From Aliidiomarina taiwanensis (lineage in GTDB: Bacteria; Pseudomonadota; Gammaproteobacteria; Enterobacterales; Alteromonadaceae): a stretch of 64,000 nucleotides of DNA. A program made the translations under genes and the position numbers. The notes below the pieces were generated by a model. That model was not told where the DNA came from. It ran no database searches and saw only the letters and a list, made by a program, of their open reading frames with translations. Location: the NCBI RefSeq assembly GCF_003987015.1, contig NZ_PIPQ01000007.1:1-64000 (forward strand), read 5' to 3'. Positions within the stretch are counted from its first letter, which is position 1. Every line of letters starts with the position of its first letter. This document shows positions 33,817 through 38,222 of the stretch, piece by piece.

Positions 33817-34734
33817 TTGACCTACGCCATCCCAGCTACTGTTTCTTTAGATGAGCCTGTACGTAGTTACTTCGGTGCTGATATTGCCACCGAGTTAACT
33901 GCAAACAGCACGCATTTAATTGGTTTTGGATTTGACGGTACCGCCTGTTTCCGTAAGGGAACACGTTACGGGCCCGACGGCCTGCGCGCCGTATCAGAAG
34001 ACATTGAATCCTATTCACCTTACCTAGACGCAGATCTTGAAGATCACGCTTTTTATGACTTAGGTAATTTACAGCTAGGTGATAGCACAGACGTTGAAAG
34101 CCAATGGCGCTATGCCACAGACACCTTTAATAGCATTTTTGCGCCTATTAATTTGGTCGAGTCCGGCATAAAAGTACTGACATTAGGAGGCGAACATTCT
34201 ATATCTTACGCGCCTATTGCCAAGTATTTACAACAATACCCCGACCTGGTGCTGCTGCATTTAGACGCCCATGCGGACTTGCGCGACGGCTTCGATGGTT
34301 TTCATTACTCCCATGCCTCTATTATTCGTAGAGCCCTCGACCATTTTGGCCCAGACCATCAGCTTATTCAGTATGGCATTCGCTCAGGAACCCGCGACGA
34401 GTACCAGTGGATGCACAAGCACCAAACAGTGCGAACTTCTCGAGAGGCCTTTTTACAAAGCGTGGCCGACATTCCGGCCAATCGCCCAATTTATCTAACC
34501 CTCGATTTAGACTATTTCGATCCGTCTTACTTACCTGGTACAGGTACACCAGAGCCAGGTGGTGAAGACTTTCATTCGTTTGTCGCCTTAATAAAACTAT
34601 TACGTGCGCGTAACTTCGTTGGGGCCGATGTGGTCGAGTTATCTCCTGAAATTGACCCAACAGGAAACTCGAATGTATTTGCCGCTAAAGTAGTCCGCGA
34701 GGTCATACTCGCTTTAGAAGGAAGTCGGTCATGA
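33817..34734 (+). CDS. speB: Agmatinase / ureohydrolase (SpeB-like)
   Basis: A member of the arginase/agmatinase family, 305 aa. All binuclear manganese ligands are visible: His127 (GGEHS), Asp150-His152-Asp154 (DAHAD) and Asp230/Asp232 (LDLDYFDP). The start is TTG at 33817 with GAGAGG nine bases upstream. The stop overlaps the speA start by four bases (ATGA), so the pair is translationally coupled. Next to arginine decarboxylase, the natural substrate is agmatine, giving putrescine and urea; this is inference from context. Confidence 0.9.
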   Translation: MTYAIPATVSLDEPVRSYFGADIATELTANSTHLIGFGFDGTACFRKGTRYGPDGLRAVSEDIESYSPYLDADLEDHAFYDLGNLQLGDSTDVESQWRYATDTFNSIFAPINLVESGIKVLTLGGEHSISYAPIAKYLQQYPDLVLLHLDAHADLRDGFDGFHYSHASIIRRALDHFGPDHQLIQYGIRSGTRDEYQWMHKHQTVRTSREAFLQSVADIPANRPIYLTLDLDYFDPSYLPGTGTPEPGGEDFHSFVALIKLLRARNFVGADVVELSPEIDPTGNSNVFAAKVVREVILALEGSRS

Positions 34735-36644
34735 ATTCATCTTGGACCATTGAAGATTCAGAAGATTTATACGGTGTAAACCGCTGGGGTGCTGGGTATT
34801 TCAGCATTGGTGAAAACGGCAATATCCAGGTGTCGCCCAACCACCGTAAGCCCGAAGTTGGGATTGATATGGCGGAAGTGCTCGCGGAAATGAAGGCGGA
34901 AGGCATTCAATTCCCCGCGGTTATCCGCTTTCATGACATTTTGCGTTCGCAAGTGGAAATTTTAAACGAAACCTTTCGCGACACCATTGCCGAGGCTGAA
35001 TATGAAGGTCAGTACATTGGTGTTTACCCCATTAAGGTAAACCAAATGCGCGAAGTCGTTGAAGAAATATTGGACGCAGGCGAACCCTACAACTATGGTC
35101 TGGAAGCAGGTTCTAAGCCTGAGCTGATGGCTGTTATGGCTTATAACGACAATCCCGACGCCCTGACCATTTTGAATGGTTATAAAGACGAAGACTACCT
35201 CACCATGGCTTTGCTAGGACGCCAACTGCAACGCAAAATGATCGTGGTCATCGAAAAGTTCTCTGAACTTGAAATGCTCATGCGCCTAGCCAAAAAGTAC
35301 AACGTTGAGCCTATGATAGGCTTGCGCTCAAAAATGATGGTGAAAAGCACTGGCAAGTGGTCAAGCTCGTCAGGCGACCGTGCCAAGTTCGGCTTGAGTA
35401 TTGCTGAAATTGTGAACGCCATTGACTACCTGAAGCAGCATGACATGCTGCACTGTGCCAAACTGCTGCACTTCCATATTGGCAGCCAATTGTCTGATAT
35501 TCGCAAAATCAAAGAAGCCGTCATTGAAGGCGCCCGCTTGTATGCCAAGCTACACCAAATGGGCGTACCTCTGGAGTACTTAGATATCGGCGGCGGTTTA
35601 GGTATTGATTATGACGGCTCAAGCAGCACCACTGACTCCTCCAGAAACTACTCCACGGAAGAGTATGTGGCCGACATTGTTTACAGTGTGAAGCAAATTT
35701 GTGACCTAGAAAAGGTGCCACACCCTAACTTGGTAAGCGAAAGTGGGCGAGTTATTACAGCACACCACAGCATGGTGGTCACCAATGTGGTAGGCGAAGT
35801 CAGTGTCACCGGCACCGAGTTTGATATCAGCCCGGAAGACGGCGAACATGTACTTGTAACCAATATGCGCGAGCTGGTGAATGCACCCGAAATGCACCCG
35901 CAAGAGCGTTACAACGACGCGGCAGCCTACAAGCAAAGCACCTACGAAGCTTTTAAGCTTGGTATTTTAACCATTGTCGAAATGGCAAAAATTGACACCA
36001 TGTACTGGCAAATTTTGACAGACATTGAACAGTCCCTCGACGAGGACACCCGCCAAATCCAAGAGTTAGACGACATTGGAAACCGGCTCGCCAGCCAGTA
36101 TTTAGCGAACTTCTCTATTTTTCAGTCTGCCGCCGACACCTGGGCTATTGGCCAGCTCCTGCCAATTGTGCCCTTACAGCGACTGAATGAAGAGCCAAAT
36201 ATTCGTTGTTCTATCGCAGACATCACCTGTGACAGCGACGGAAAAATTGGTAAGTACATAGAACACAACCAAATCAGTGAAAACATTCCAATGCATCGCT
36301 TAAAAAAGGATGAGGAATACACGATAGGTATGTTCCTAACCGGCGCCTACCAAGACGTCATGGGCGATATGCACAACCTATTTGGCCGTTTAACGGAAGT
36401 GCATATATTCAGCCACGACGAAGAGCCAGGTGCTTTCTACATTGAAGAAATAGTCCCAGGCCATTCCGCTGAGAAAGTGTTAGAAGCCATGCAGTACAAC
36501 ACCGACTACATGGCCAAAGTAGTGAAGAAATCCATCGACCGAGAAATTCGCCAGGGTAAAATACCACCACGCGAAGGCGTTCGTTGGACCGACTTCTACG
36601 AACGCTGCCTAGCCGGCACTACCTACTTAAGTAGCGGTAACTAA
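34731..36644 (+). CDS. speA: Biosynthetic arginine decarboxylase
   Basis: This pyridoxal-phosphate enzyme converts arginine to agmatine. It is 637 aa, the usual SpeA length. The cofactor Lys102 is in VYPIKVNQM, and the barrel motif HFHIGSQLSDI and the phosphate-binding YLDIGGGLGIDY follow. It overlaps the agmatinase gene by four bases, so the two steps from arginine to putrescine are made together. No polyamine-aminopropyl genes are adjacent. Confidence 0.97.
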   Translation: MNSSWTIEDSEDLYGVNRWGAGYFSIGENGNIQVSPNHRKPEVGIDMAEVLAEMKAEGIQFPAVIRFHDILRSQVEILNETFRDTIAEAEYEGQYIGVYPIKVNQMREVVEEILDAGEPYNYGLEAGSKPELMAVMAYNDNPDALTILNGYKDEDYLTMALLGRQLQRKMIVVIEKFSELEMLMRLAKKYNVEPMIGLRSKMMVKSTGKWSSSSGDRAKFGLSIAEIVNAIDYLKQHDMLHCAKLLHFHIGSQLSDIRKIKEAVIEGARLYAKLHQMGVPLEYLDIGGGLGIDYDGSSSTTDSSRNYSTEEYVADIVYSVKQICDLEKVPHPNLVSESGRVITAHHSMVVTNVVGEVSVTGTEFDISPEDGEHVLVTNMRELVNAPEMHPQERYNDAAAYKQSTYEAFKLGILTIVEMAKIDTMYWQILTDIEQSLDEDTRQIQELDDIGNRLASQYLANFSIFQSAADTWAIGQLLPIVPLQRLNEEPNIRCSIADITCDSDGKIGKYIEHNQISENIPMHRLKKDEEYTIGMFLTGAYQDVMGDMHNLFGRLTEVHIFSHDEEPGAFYIEEIVPGHSAEKVLEAMQYNTDYMAKVVKKSIDREIRQGKIPPREGVRWTDFYERCLAGTTYLSSGN

Positions 36645-36704
36645 CCAAAAAAGCAACAAAGCGTTTAAATCCTGACCACTCAGTCAGTATTTCGCAGAAA
36701 CCGT

Positions 36705-36733
36705 TTGACATTGCGGCCTCAAAAACGTTTAAT
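36705..36733 (+). promoter_or_regulatory. Promoter of tRNA-Phe
   Basis: A consensus -35 TTGACA (36705-36710), a 17-base spacer and -10 TTTAAT (36728-36733), followed by a C-rich stretch before the tRNA. A C/G-rich stretch here is typical of stringently controlled stable-RNA promoters. Confidence 0.8.
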
Positions 36734-36742
36734 TGCCCCCAC

Positions 36743-36818
36743 GCCCAGATAGCTCAGTCGGTAGAGCAGGGGATTGAAAATCCCCGTGTCGGTGGTTCGA
36801 TTCCGCCTCTGGGCACCA
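36743..36818 (+). tRNA. tRNA-Phe (GAA)
   Basis: A 76-base cloverleaf with an encoded CCA. The acceptor arms GCCCAGA and TCTGGGC pair, the anticodon arm GGGGA-TTGAAAA-TCCCC carries anticodon GAA, and the T arm contains GGTTCGATTCC. Discriminator A precedes CCA. Single-gene transcript with its own promoter and terminator. Confidence 0.97.
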
Positions 36819-36858
36819 AATATAAAAAAACCGCCCTTGTGGCGGTTTTTTTATATTT
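36818..36858 (+). terminator. Rho-independent terminator of tRNA-Phe
   Basis: A very strong perfect palindrome: CCGCC-CTTGT-GGCGG extended by A-rich/T-rich arms to 18 bases each side, with a T7 tract on both strands. A second copy of its core occurs at 37015-37051. Confidence 0.9.
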
Positions 36859-36867
36859 GGAATTCAG
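36831..36867 (+). repeat. 37-bp direct repeat, copy 1
   Basis: Identical 37-base sequence, starting CCGCCCTTGTGGCGG and ending GGAATTCAG, also found at 37015-37051. This copy includes the tRNA-Phe terminator. Confidence 0.95.
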
Positions 36868-36879
36868 TGGGCTGGATGA

Positions 36880-36965
36880 GAACCACCGATTGGTTCGACA
36901 AAAATGTCTGGAACATTTTTGGACGCACGCAGTGCGGGCCGAAGGCCGAGCCCCAGGGATGGGGC
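36880..36965. repeat. Chain of five consecutive hairpins between the direct repeats
   Basis: Five perfect inverted repeats follow each other with almost no spacer. They are GAACCA-N5-TGGTTC (36880-36896), AAAAATGT-N5-ACATTTTT (36900-36920), CGCAC-GCA-GTGCG (36924-36936), GGCC-GAA-GGCC (36937-36947) and GCCCC-N6-GGGGC (36950-36965). The first arm plus loop, GAACCACCGA, is the reverse complement of the T-arm segment of the neighbouring tRNA. An open frame runs through it but it does not look like a protein. Its nature is not known; a structured RNA or a mobile repeat are the main options. Confidence 0.7.
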
Positions 36966-37014
36966 GAGCATTCCGCCGCCCGAACACTCACCTTAAATAT
37001 CAACTCCAACCCCT

Positions 37015-37051
37015 CCGCCCTTGTGGCGGTTTTTTTATATTTGGAATTCAG
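37015..37051 (+). repeat. 37-bp direct repeat, copy 2 (terminator duplicate)
   Basis: A perfect second copy of the 37-base block at 36831-36867, again a terminator hairpin with a T7 tract. Together the copies bracket a 147-base segment holding the hairpin chain. Duplication of the terminator suggests insertion or tandem duplication at the tRNA 3' end. Confidence 0.95.
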
Positions 37052-37102
37052 CCTTTAATTTTTTTGTAGGTCATGCACTGCATAACGCACAACCCAAGCG
37101 CT

Positions 37103-38062
37103 TTACACAAACCCGTACCGCTGCTTCACCTCTTCTGGCCACACGCTCGCTTGAACATAACCAATATGCGGCTCTTGCATGAGCCACATGCACAGCCGTG
37201 ACTGGCCTATGCCGCCCCCTACTGTGGCTGGCAGCTCGCCACTTAATAAACGCTGATGCCAAGGCTGAAGGCTTTCCTTCTCCCGCTGTAATTCCGTGAG
37301 CTGGACCATCAGCCGTTGCTTATCCACCCGCACCCCCATGGAGCTGAGTTCAATGGAACGCTGCAGTACCGAACTCCAAACCAATAAGTCACCGTTCAGC
37401 TGCCAGTCGTCATAATCAGGTGCTCGCGTGTCGTGCAGGGTTCCGTTGCTTAACCGCCCGCCTATGCCTTGAATAAACACCACACCATACTCTTTCGCTA
37501 TCGCATGCTCCCGCTCCTTCGGAGTTTTATGTGGATATTTACGTAGTAAGTCTTCGCTGGTTACATACCCTAGTTTTTCCGGCAGGCTTACGGCTCCACC
37601 AAAGGCTTGGTTATACCTCTCCACGGTGCTTTTTAAGGCTGCAAATATGCTTTCAGCAGCTAATCGTAAGGTCACGGCGTTACGTTGGTTTTCAGCTATT
37701 ACTTGTTCCCAGTCCCACTGGTCAACCATGACAGAGTGAATGGGGCTATACACATCTTCCATTGGCCGTAACGCCTTCATGTTGGTTACAATGCCTTGTC
37801 CAATAGGGAAGTGATAGTCGGCTAGCAATTGTCGCTTCCACTTCGCCAATGAATGCACCACTTCGTAGTTTTTCGCTAAAGCGGCTATTGGCACTTGCAC
37901 CGCCTTTTCGTTACCCGACAGGGTGTCTTGTTCCCCTTGTTGCGGATCCGTTAATAAGGGAGCTTCCACTTCCACCAATGCAAGCTGCTCGCACAAGGCT
38001 TGGCTAAAATGTTGTTTAATCCATCGCACAGACTGTTGGCGTGTTATAAATGCTGTTTTCAT
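37103..38062 (-). CDS. asnA: Aspartate--ammonia ligase (asparagine synthetase A)
   Basis: This enzyme makes asparagine from aspartate, ammonia and ATP. It is 319 aa with the class II tRNA-synthetase-like fold. The family blocks VEAPLL, DQWDWE and GGGIGQSRLCMWL are present. The ATG at 38062 has GAGG five bases upstream; an upstream in-frame ATG lacks this spacing. It is divergent from asnC across 160 AT-rich bases, the arrangement in which AsnC activates asnA when asparagine is scarce in E. coli. Confidence 0.96.
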   Translation of the reverse strand: MKTAFITRQQSVRWIKQHFSQALCEQLALVEVEAPLLTDPQQGEQDTLSGNEKAVQVPIAALAKNYEVVHSLAKWKRQLLADYHFPIGQGIVTNMKALRPMEDVYSPIHSVMVDQWDWEQVIAENQRNAVTLRLAAESIFAALKSTVERYNQAFGGAVSLPEKLGYVTSEDLLRKYPHKTPKEREHAIAKEYGVVFIQGIGGRLSNGTLHDTRAPDYDDWQLNGDLLVWSSVLQRSIELSSMGVRVDKQRLMVQLTELQREKESLQPWHQRLLSGELPATVGGGIGQSRLCMWLMQEPHIGYVQASVWPEEVKQRYGFV

Positions 38063-38222
38063 GCTTACCTCGTTACACTTCATTTAACGTATTAATAAAC
38101 ACTCCATAAGAAGATACAATACTCTTTAAAAAAAATAGCCATATGCGTTATTTTATTTAAACAAATAGCAAATATAATTAACTAACCACTAATAAACCTC
38201 GCAAAAAAGGGAGCTAAACTGA
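38063..38222. promoter_or_regulatory. asnA-asnC divergent control region
   Basis: A 160-base, strongly AT-rich intergenic region with A and T tracts (about 38105-38190) between two divergent genes. AsnC-family proteins bind such AT-rich curved DNA. No single operator can be named with confidence. Confidence 0.5.

Follow-up and report, generated by a model that had tools for sequence, protein, structure and literature searches.

A tRNA-linked repeat behind tRNA-Phe in Aliidiomarina taiwanensis and the dispersal of its four-hairpin core

tRNA-linked repeats (TLRs) have been known from Escherichia coli since 1978. Two other kinds of short bacterial repeat are compared with them below: the Rickettsia palindromic elements, which are short, palindromic and non-coding and occur both in spacers and in-frame within a protein gene, and the REP/BIME elements with their RAYT transposases, short palindromes for which an enzyme acting in trans is assumed. 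The TLRs of E. coli comprise 22 copies at 10 loci in tRNA and rRNA operons, and the last 18–19 bp of each copy match the end of the upstream gene exactly (PMC8144298). By that account, TLRs are without known function, and their origin is not stated (PMC8144298). Three of the repeats, rrA, rrB and rrF, lie between dual terminators, and their RNAs bind Hfq and CsrA; at rrnB, an RNA that reads through the first terminator (T1) and is ended by the second (T2) has been reported (PMC8144298). The rrnB RNA (RrB) binds CsrA via GGA sites, and Hfq, in vitro, and the rrnB T1-T2 terminator is used on many expression plasmids (PMC8144298); it holds the same core as the element described below.

Here we analyse a TLR located in a 64,000-nt stretch of the Aliidiomarina taiwanensis genome (the window). 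As TLRs are already known, what appears unusual is that the core of this repeat behaves as an apparent mobile cassette that reaches well beyond tRNA genes.

Anatomy of the unit behind tRNA-Phe

The unit directly follows a tRNA-Phe gene and is bracketed by two identical 37-nt blocks with a spacing of 184 nt (Table 1). A preliminary description of the segment had pointed out five hairpins in a row within 86 nt, all of which were located (36880–36965), and a part of the first hairpin that is complementary to the T-arm of the tRNA. The latter is borne out by a 10-nt exact match, in which the T-arm TCGGTGGTTC (36789–36798) has its exact complement in GAACCACCGA (36880–36889). The same description held that the two identical blocks each carry the full tRNA terminator; the identity stands, but T2 lacks the 20-bp stem of T1. 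All that remains in the second block is the GC stem CCGCC/GGCGG together with the T-run, so that this block does not hold a full terminator.

Table 1. Features of the tRNA-linked repeat, in window coordinates.
Feature	Position	Strand	Basis
tRNA-Phe (GAA), host gene of the repeat	36743–36818	+	ARAGORN
Terminator T1 of tRNA-Phe, perfect 20-bp stem, overlaps the CCA end	36816–36860	+	Inverted repeat
37-nt block, copy 1	36831–36867	+	Direct repeat D1
T-arm complement GGCTGGATGAGAACCACCGA, 5´ part of the TLR	36870–36889	+	10-nt exact complement of the T-arm
Hairpin 1, GAACCA/TGGTTC	36880–36896	+	Sequence and RNA fold
Four-hairpin cassette (core, apparent mobile part)	36898–36972	+	R2 match, 78.1 bits
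Cassette hairpin a, CAAAAATGT/ACATTTTTG, loop CTGGA	36899–36921	+	Sequence, fold, covariation
Cassette hairpin b, CGCAC/GTGCG	36924–36936	+	Sequence, fold, covariation
Cassette hairpin c, GGCC/GGCC	36937–36947	+	Sequence; helix 3 of the covariation alignment
Cassette hairpin d, GCCCC/GGGGC, loop AGGGAT	36950–36965	+	Sequence, fold, covariation
ATTCCGCC, apparent residue of a tRNA-Phe 3´ tail copy	36970–36977	+	Longest tRNA-tail match, 8 nt
37-nt block, copy 2, holding the shortened terminator T2 (37015–37036)	37015–37051	+	Direct repeat

The predicted RNA fold of positions 36868–36990 has a free energy of −51.4 kcal/mol (z −3.15), and none of 200 shuffled sequences folds as low. No sigma-70-like promoter was found in 36650–37150, and eight ORFs of 20–94 aa, on both strands, overlap 36860–37060. 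The unit is located between the gene of a 637-aa protein (34731–36644), which we take to be arginine decarboxylase, and that of a presumably asparagine-synthetase-like protein (37103–38083). We also take the loop of hairpin d to resemble the consensus of CsrA sites.

Relation to tRNA-linked repeats

Judged by its parts, the 184-bp unit is a TLR that is composed of a T-arm complement, hairpins and a gene-tail copy that has apparently decayed to 8 nt. Like the E. coli TLRs and the Rfam family RtT, it is located just 3´ of a tRNA gene (starting at 36868), contains hairpins, shows on its 3´ side an apparent copy of the gene tail, occurs in tandem units and carries the T-arm complement GGAT-GAG- on its 5´ side; the parts of the tyrTV repeats of E. 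coli K-12 are ordered as in the window unit. It differs in its tail copy, which is 8 nt long compared with 18–19, in its RtT score, which is below the cut-off, in its GGA loops, which are absent from the tyrTV repeats of K-12, and in the presence of an inverted relative at the second tRNA-Phe of the same genome.

Against the Rfam model RtT (RF00391), which represents the tyrT repeat, the window scored 23.1 bits (E 0.18) and did not reach the gathering cut-off of 45 bits; at a lax threshold, 29 Rfam matches were listed for the window, many of them chance matches. The RtT cut-off is passed by linked relatives (L045, 45.2 bits; L047, 45.5 bits; L043, 56.8 bits) and, within the order, in 21 of 148 genomes (27 if E 0.001 is used instead); in one of them (G027), it is passed at the very site that the window DNA query had hit as well. 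A model built from nine window-type elements (R1) recovers RtT loci outside its training set (L030, 51.2 bits; L029, 45.9 bits; L027, 38.7 bits).

Matches to R1 are present in all 17 genomes of the genus, the window genome included, and in 44 of the 59 genomes of the family at E 1e-6; the initial DNA search gave matches in 8 of 38 relatives, again counting the window genome. The 134 R1 matches, 127 of them distinct, fall in 97 loci that were fetched via a model or DNA-query match and are thus not a random sample, and the counts retain matches with wrong contexts. Sixty-nine of the distinct matches are no more than 90 nt downstream of a tRNA or tmRNA gene (Ser 22, Glu 9, Tyr 8, Arg 7, Lys 6, tmRNA 6, Phe 5, Pro 5 and Gln 1). 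A tail copy of at least 12 nt accompanies 40 of these 69, compared with none of 1380 pairings in which the tRNA was of a different type, and a complement of the own T-arm of at least 8 nt accompanies 42 of the 69, compared with 80 of 1380 mismatched pairings. Both counts cover the 90-nt class and leave out the other 58 of the 127 matches, among which are copies inverted beside tRNA-Phe or tRNA-Gly, later units of arrays, copies at contig ends, 5S-linked copies (L087 and L103) and copies found elsewhere.

Searches of the own and related genomes with the segment itself returned further copies, so that it is neither a single nor an unconserved occurrence, and most relatives lack the unit at the exact locus. 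In the window genome, a second unit, 95% identical across the greater part of the query, follows the other tRNA-Phe, at C26, and a weaker DNA match follows the tmRNA at C1. At C26, tRNA-Phe and its terminator are followed by a core relative in inverted orientation, then by a 16-nt copy of the tRNA tail (CCGCCTCTGGGCACCA), the window-like unit and the beginning of a further, truncated unit.

The four-hairpin core within and beyond tRNA tails

The core was searched with R2, a covariance model made from 36 cassettes, none of which is from E. coli. The E. coli rrnB T1-T2 spacer (RrB) scored 74.9 bits with this model, compared with 78.1 bits for the window, and three K-12 tyrTV repeats scored 22.4–24.7 bits. 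The window unit and rrnB have the four-hairpin core in common, in both cases between two terminators; the host gene is tRNA-Phe in the window and 5S for RrA, RrB and RrF. Two-sided changes occur in 18 of the 23 pairs of the R2 alignment, and the covariation score is 0.634, compared with 0.053–0.108 for slid partners. Paired cells make up 92.6% of the alignment, a share that is biased upward because hairpin shape had played a part in the selection of the R1 and A3 sequences. The G-U content was considered as a test between DNA and RNA and rejected, as the difference between the cassettes (2.7%) and the acceptor and T stems of tRNAs (4.3%) is too small.

At E 1e-7, with E-values that are rough estimates, R2 matched at least 93 of the 274 genomes that had been sampled from the class, the window genome included; since at most 17 candidates were scored per genome, this count is a lower bound for sensitivity. 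The rest of the 64-kb window, used as a control, gave no second match at E 0.01. The whole genome has eight matches at E 1e-4; besides those at tRNA-Phe and tmRNA genes, matches are located after a 5S rRNA gene at C1 (L087) and in an insertion sequence (IS) gene at C8.

In five genomes, 134 R2 matches (E 1e-4) were classed by setting: 70 are on the same strand and at most 700 nt beyond a tRNA, tmRNA or 5S gene, 16 are inverted and 48 are elsewhere. A downstream stretch of at least 14 nt that is also found upstream accompanies 40 of the 70 same-strand, 6 of the 16 inverted and 10 of the 48 other matches (mismatched controls: 6/560, 0/128 and 2/384), with some of these stretches being tandem cassettes rather than gene tails. 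Head-to-tail tandem cassettes are seen at L207, L225 and L311 (genomes G167 and G173), with R2 matches 71–80 nt apart, and G349 has matches at a similar tandem spacing. A weak test for flanking inverted repeats gave 7 of 70, compared with 14 of 560.

Some of the copies elsewhere are located directly behind EF-Tu genes or at their ends. At L178, a tuf frame ends at 922 and is followed by the cassette (1001–1082) and then by a repeat of 34 nt of the tuf end; a 31-nt repeat at L239 is read as tuf, and at L202 the cassette provides, as judged by eye, the final codon and the stop of an EF-Tu frame. At L086 and L135, inspection by eye showed incomplete tRNA-Arg-like and tRNA-Lys-like sequences whose T-loop contains the cassette.

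Homologous sites free of the cassette, as expected of a non-autonomous mobile element, were found in several kinds of host. Two group II introns, from G014 and G005, carry clean insertions of roughly 60–69 nt when compared with introns on a Providencia and a Klebsiella plasmid, respectively. In the window genome, the IS orfA at C8 is broken by a cassette with a stop (37.2 bits), and its three paralogues (C3, C6 and C9) are cassette-free. An IS66 transposase of 425 aa in G014 contains an in-frame cassette between WAD and TT (L170, 1577–1651), where an Enterobacter homologue reads WADETT and has no cassette. A Catenovulum plasmid copy of IS66 has a cassette, with stops, at the same WAD/TT place (L323, 209–284), so that some copies may be inherited inside their host element. 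Eight fetched copies in G459 and five in G335 are in dispersed repeats with unlike surroundings, whose similarity stops about 32–107 nt from the cassette. In G459 (L297–L304), the dispersed repeat that encloses the cassette is a few hundred bp long, with both ends near TTAA.

The syntenic tRNA-Phe locus was fetched from 31 relatives, of which 29 were counted after one without the tRNA and one short sequence had been left out. R2 matched six of the 29, one in the forward orientation with two cassettes and five inverted; 22 of 29 have no match, and a remnant was recognized by eye at L261. With 30 syntenic loci taken as a control for R2, seven matches were returned, in six loci and just past tRNA-Phe. 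One and the same locus exists in three states among relatives, forward, inverted and absent. Aliidiomarina quisquiliarum, the closest named relative found (neighbour protein 91%), has the tRNA-Phe and its terminator without the unit, and in Idiomarina fontislapidosi (L278), which is one of the 22 loci with no match, the tail and terminator beyond tRNA-Phe are duplicated without a cassette, as judged by eye.

Among 137 matches, 85 have a G immediately ahead of the cassette and 130 have A as its first base, and the cassette is mostly followed by A-A-T/A. Together with the cassette-free sites, these counts suggest CGA|A or a similar sequence as the putative insertion site, a consensus that is partly that of the T-loop because tRNA-linked copies dominate the sample. 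By eye, at most one A could be a target-site duplication. At L315, the cassette splits a palindrome.

Origin of the unit and alternative explanations

These settings suggest that the four-hairpin core is a very small non-coding element which, in many gamma-proteobacteria, has spread into the tails of tRNA genes as well as into introns, insertion sequences and further repeats. We regard it as probable that the TLR is a duplicated tRNA tail and terminator with a non-autonomous mobile cassette, possibly read through as a CsrA-binding RNA. The 3´ tail of tRNA-Phe would have been copied together with its terminator, and the T-loop of this copy would have received the cassette, whichever event came first; the T-loop of the tail copy would thus hold the four-hairpin cassette of 70–85 nt, with the T-arm complement on its 5´ side. 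The cassette would be inserted directly, at short CGA|A-type sites that apparently often lie in or beside palindromes, by an enzyme presumably supplied in trans; no such enzyme was found. Read-through of T1 could give an RNA ended by T2, which may bind CsrA as its E. coli relative RrB does.

A wider reading, which we put forward tentatively as possible but somewhat short of probable, is that the core represents a new class of non-coding mobile cassette of 60–85 nt, spread through gamma-proteobacteria, with CGA|A-like sites in or beside palindromes and a trans-acting enzyme, of which the TLRs, the rrnB spacer and the intron and IS inserts are all insertions. If the core is a mobile cassette, the origin of TLRs becomes testable by strain comparison and capture assays; the wider reading, if true, would explain that origin, and the cassette sites would form a natural set for finding the moving enzyme. 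The titles and abstracts searched in the open-licence literature contained no mobile-cassette account, which may exist beyond that literature.

The preliminary description had offered a structured RNA, a REP-like mobile repeat and a tRNA-tail duplication unit as alternatives, and each of them captures a part. The unit is a TLR-type tail duplication in which the terminator has been copied too, and the core is a structured element, as the covariation of its stems indicates. The likeness to REP extends to the dispersal and apparent mobility of the core; the cassette is palindromic like REP/BIME elements, with a trans enzyme assumed in both, and is set apart by description, consisting of four hairpins with GGA loops. 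Likened in the same way, by description only, the Rickettsia palindromic elements also occupy spacers and in-frame positions within a protein gene, and differ in belonging to another class of the phylum and in having other hairpins.

The best of the other explanations, which we consider rather unlikely, is a host regulatory small RNA whose GGA loops would capture and titrate CsrA in parallel with the transcription of tRNA and rRNA. The window cassette has GGA in the hairpin loops CTGGA and AGGGAT, as a CsrA sponge should, and GGA is present in loop a of 128 and in loop d of 126 of 132 distinct matches, but R2 encodes GGA itself, so that its detection favours GGA. The genome has two CsrA genes, the dual-terminator layout is like that of rrnB, and for RrB, whose core is shared, in vitro binding of both CsrA and Hfq has been described (PMC8144298). 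However, the 14 inverted copies all retain GGA in both loops, and so do 40 of 41 copies that are not near an annotated RNA gene, even though transcription of an inverted copy from the tRNA promoter would yield UCC. As inverted copies retain GGA equally, CsrA binding by a read-through RNA is insufficient on its own to account for the loop conservation. Its occurrence in inverted copies points either to a function that the loops have within the cassette or to inversions that happened recently. The element is also absent from most syntenic loci. In E. coli, deletion of rrA, B and F has modest effects only, and the 19 tRNA-operon TLRs score below 0.01 for CsrA binding (PMC8144298).

It is unlikely that larger mobile elements (IS66 type, group II introns and MITE-like repeats) simply carry the cassette along when they are copied and that it reached tRNA tails via palindrome recombination. 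Cassettes are present in all of these element types, and one IS66 place is shared by cassettes of two genera; what stands against this account is that the cassette is common to hosts that are unrelated, and that homologous hosts without it exist.

A pure tail duplication by recombination, with the 184-bp unit as a slipped copy and the hairpins as filler, is very improbable and is contradicted as a full account, because the hairpin core is not tRNA-derived, covaries and lies away from tRNAs in 48 of the 134 matches in five genomes, despite the identical 37-nt blocks, the partial third unit at C26 and the cassette-free duplication at L278. Such duplication of tail plus terminator, which can also come from ordinary recombination, is the likely route by which the terminator was copied.
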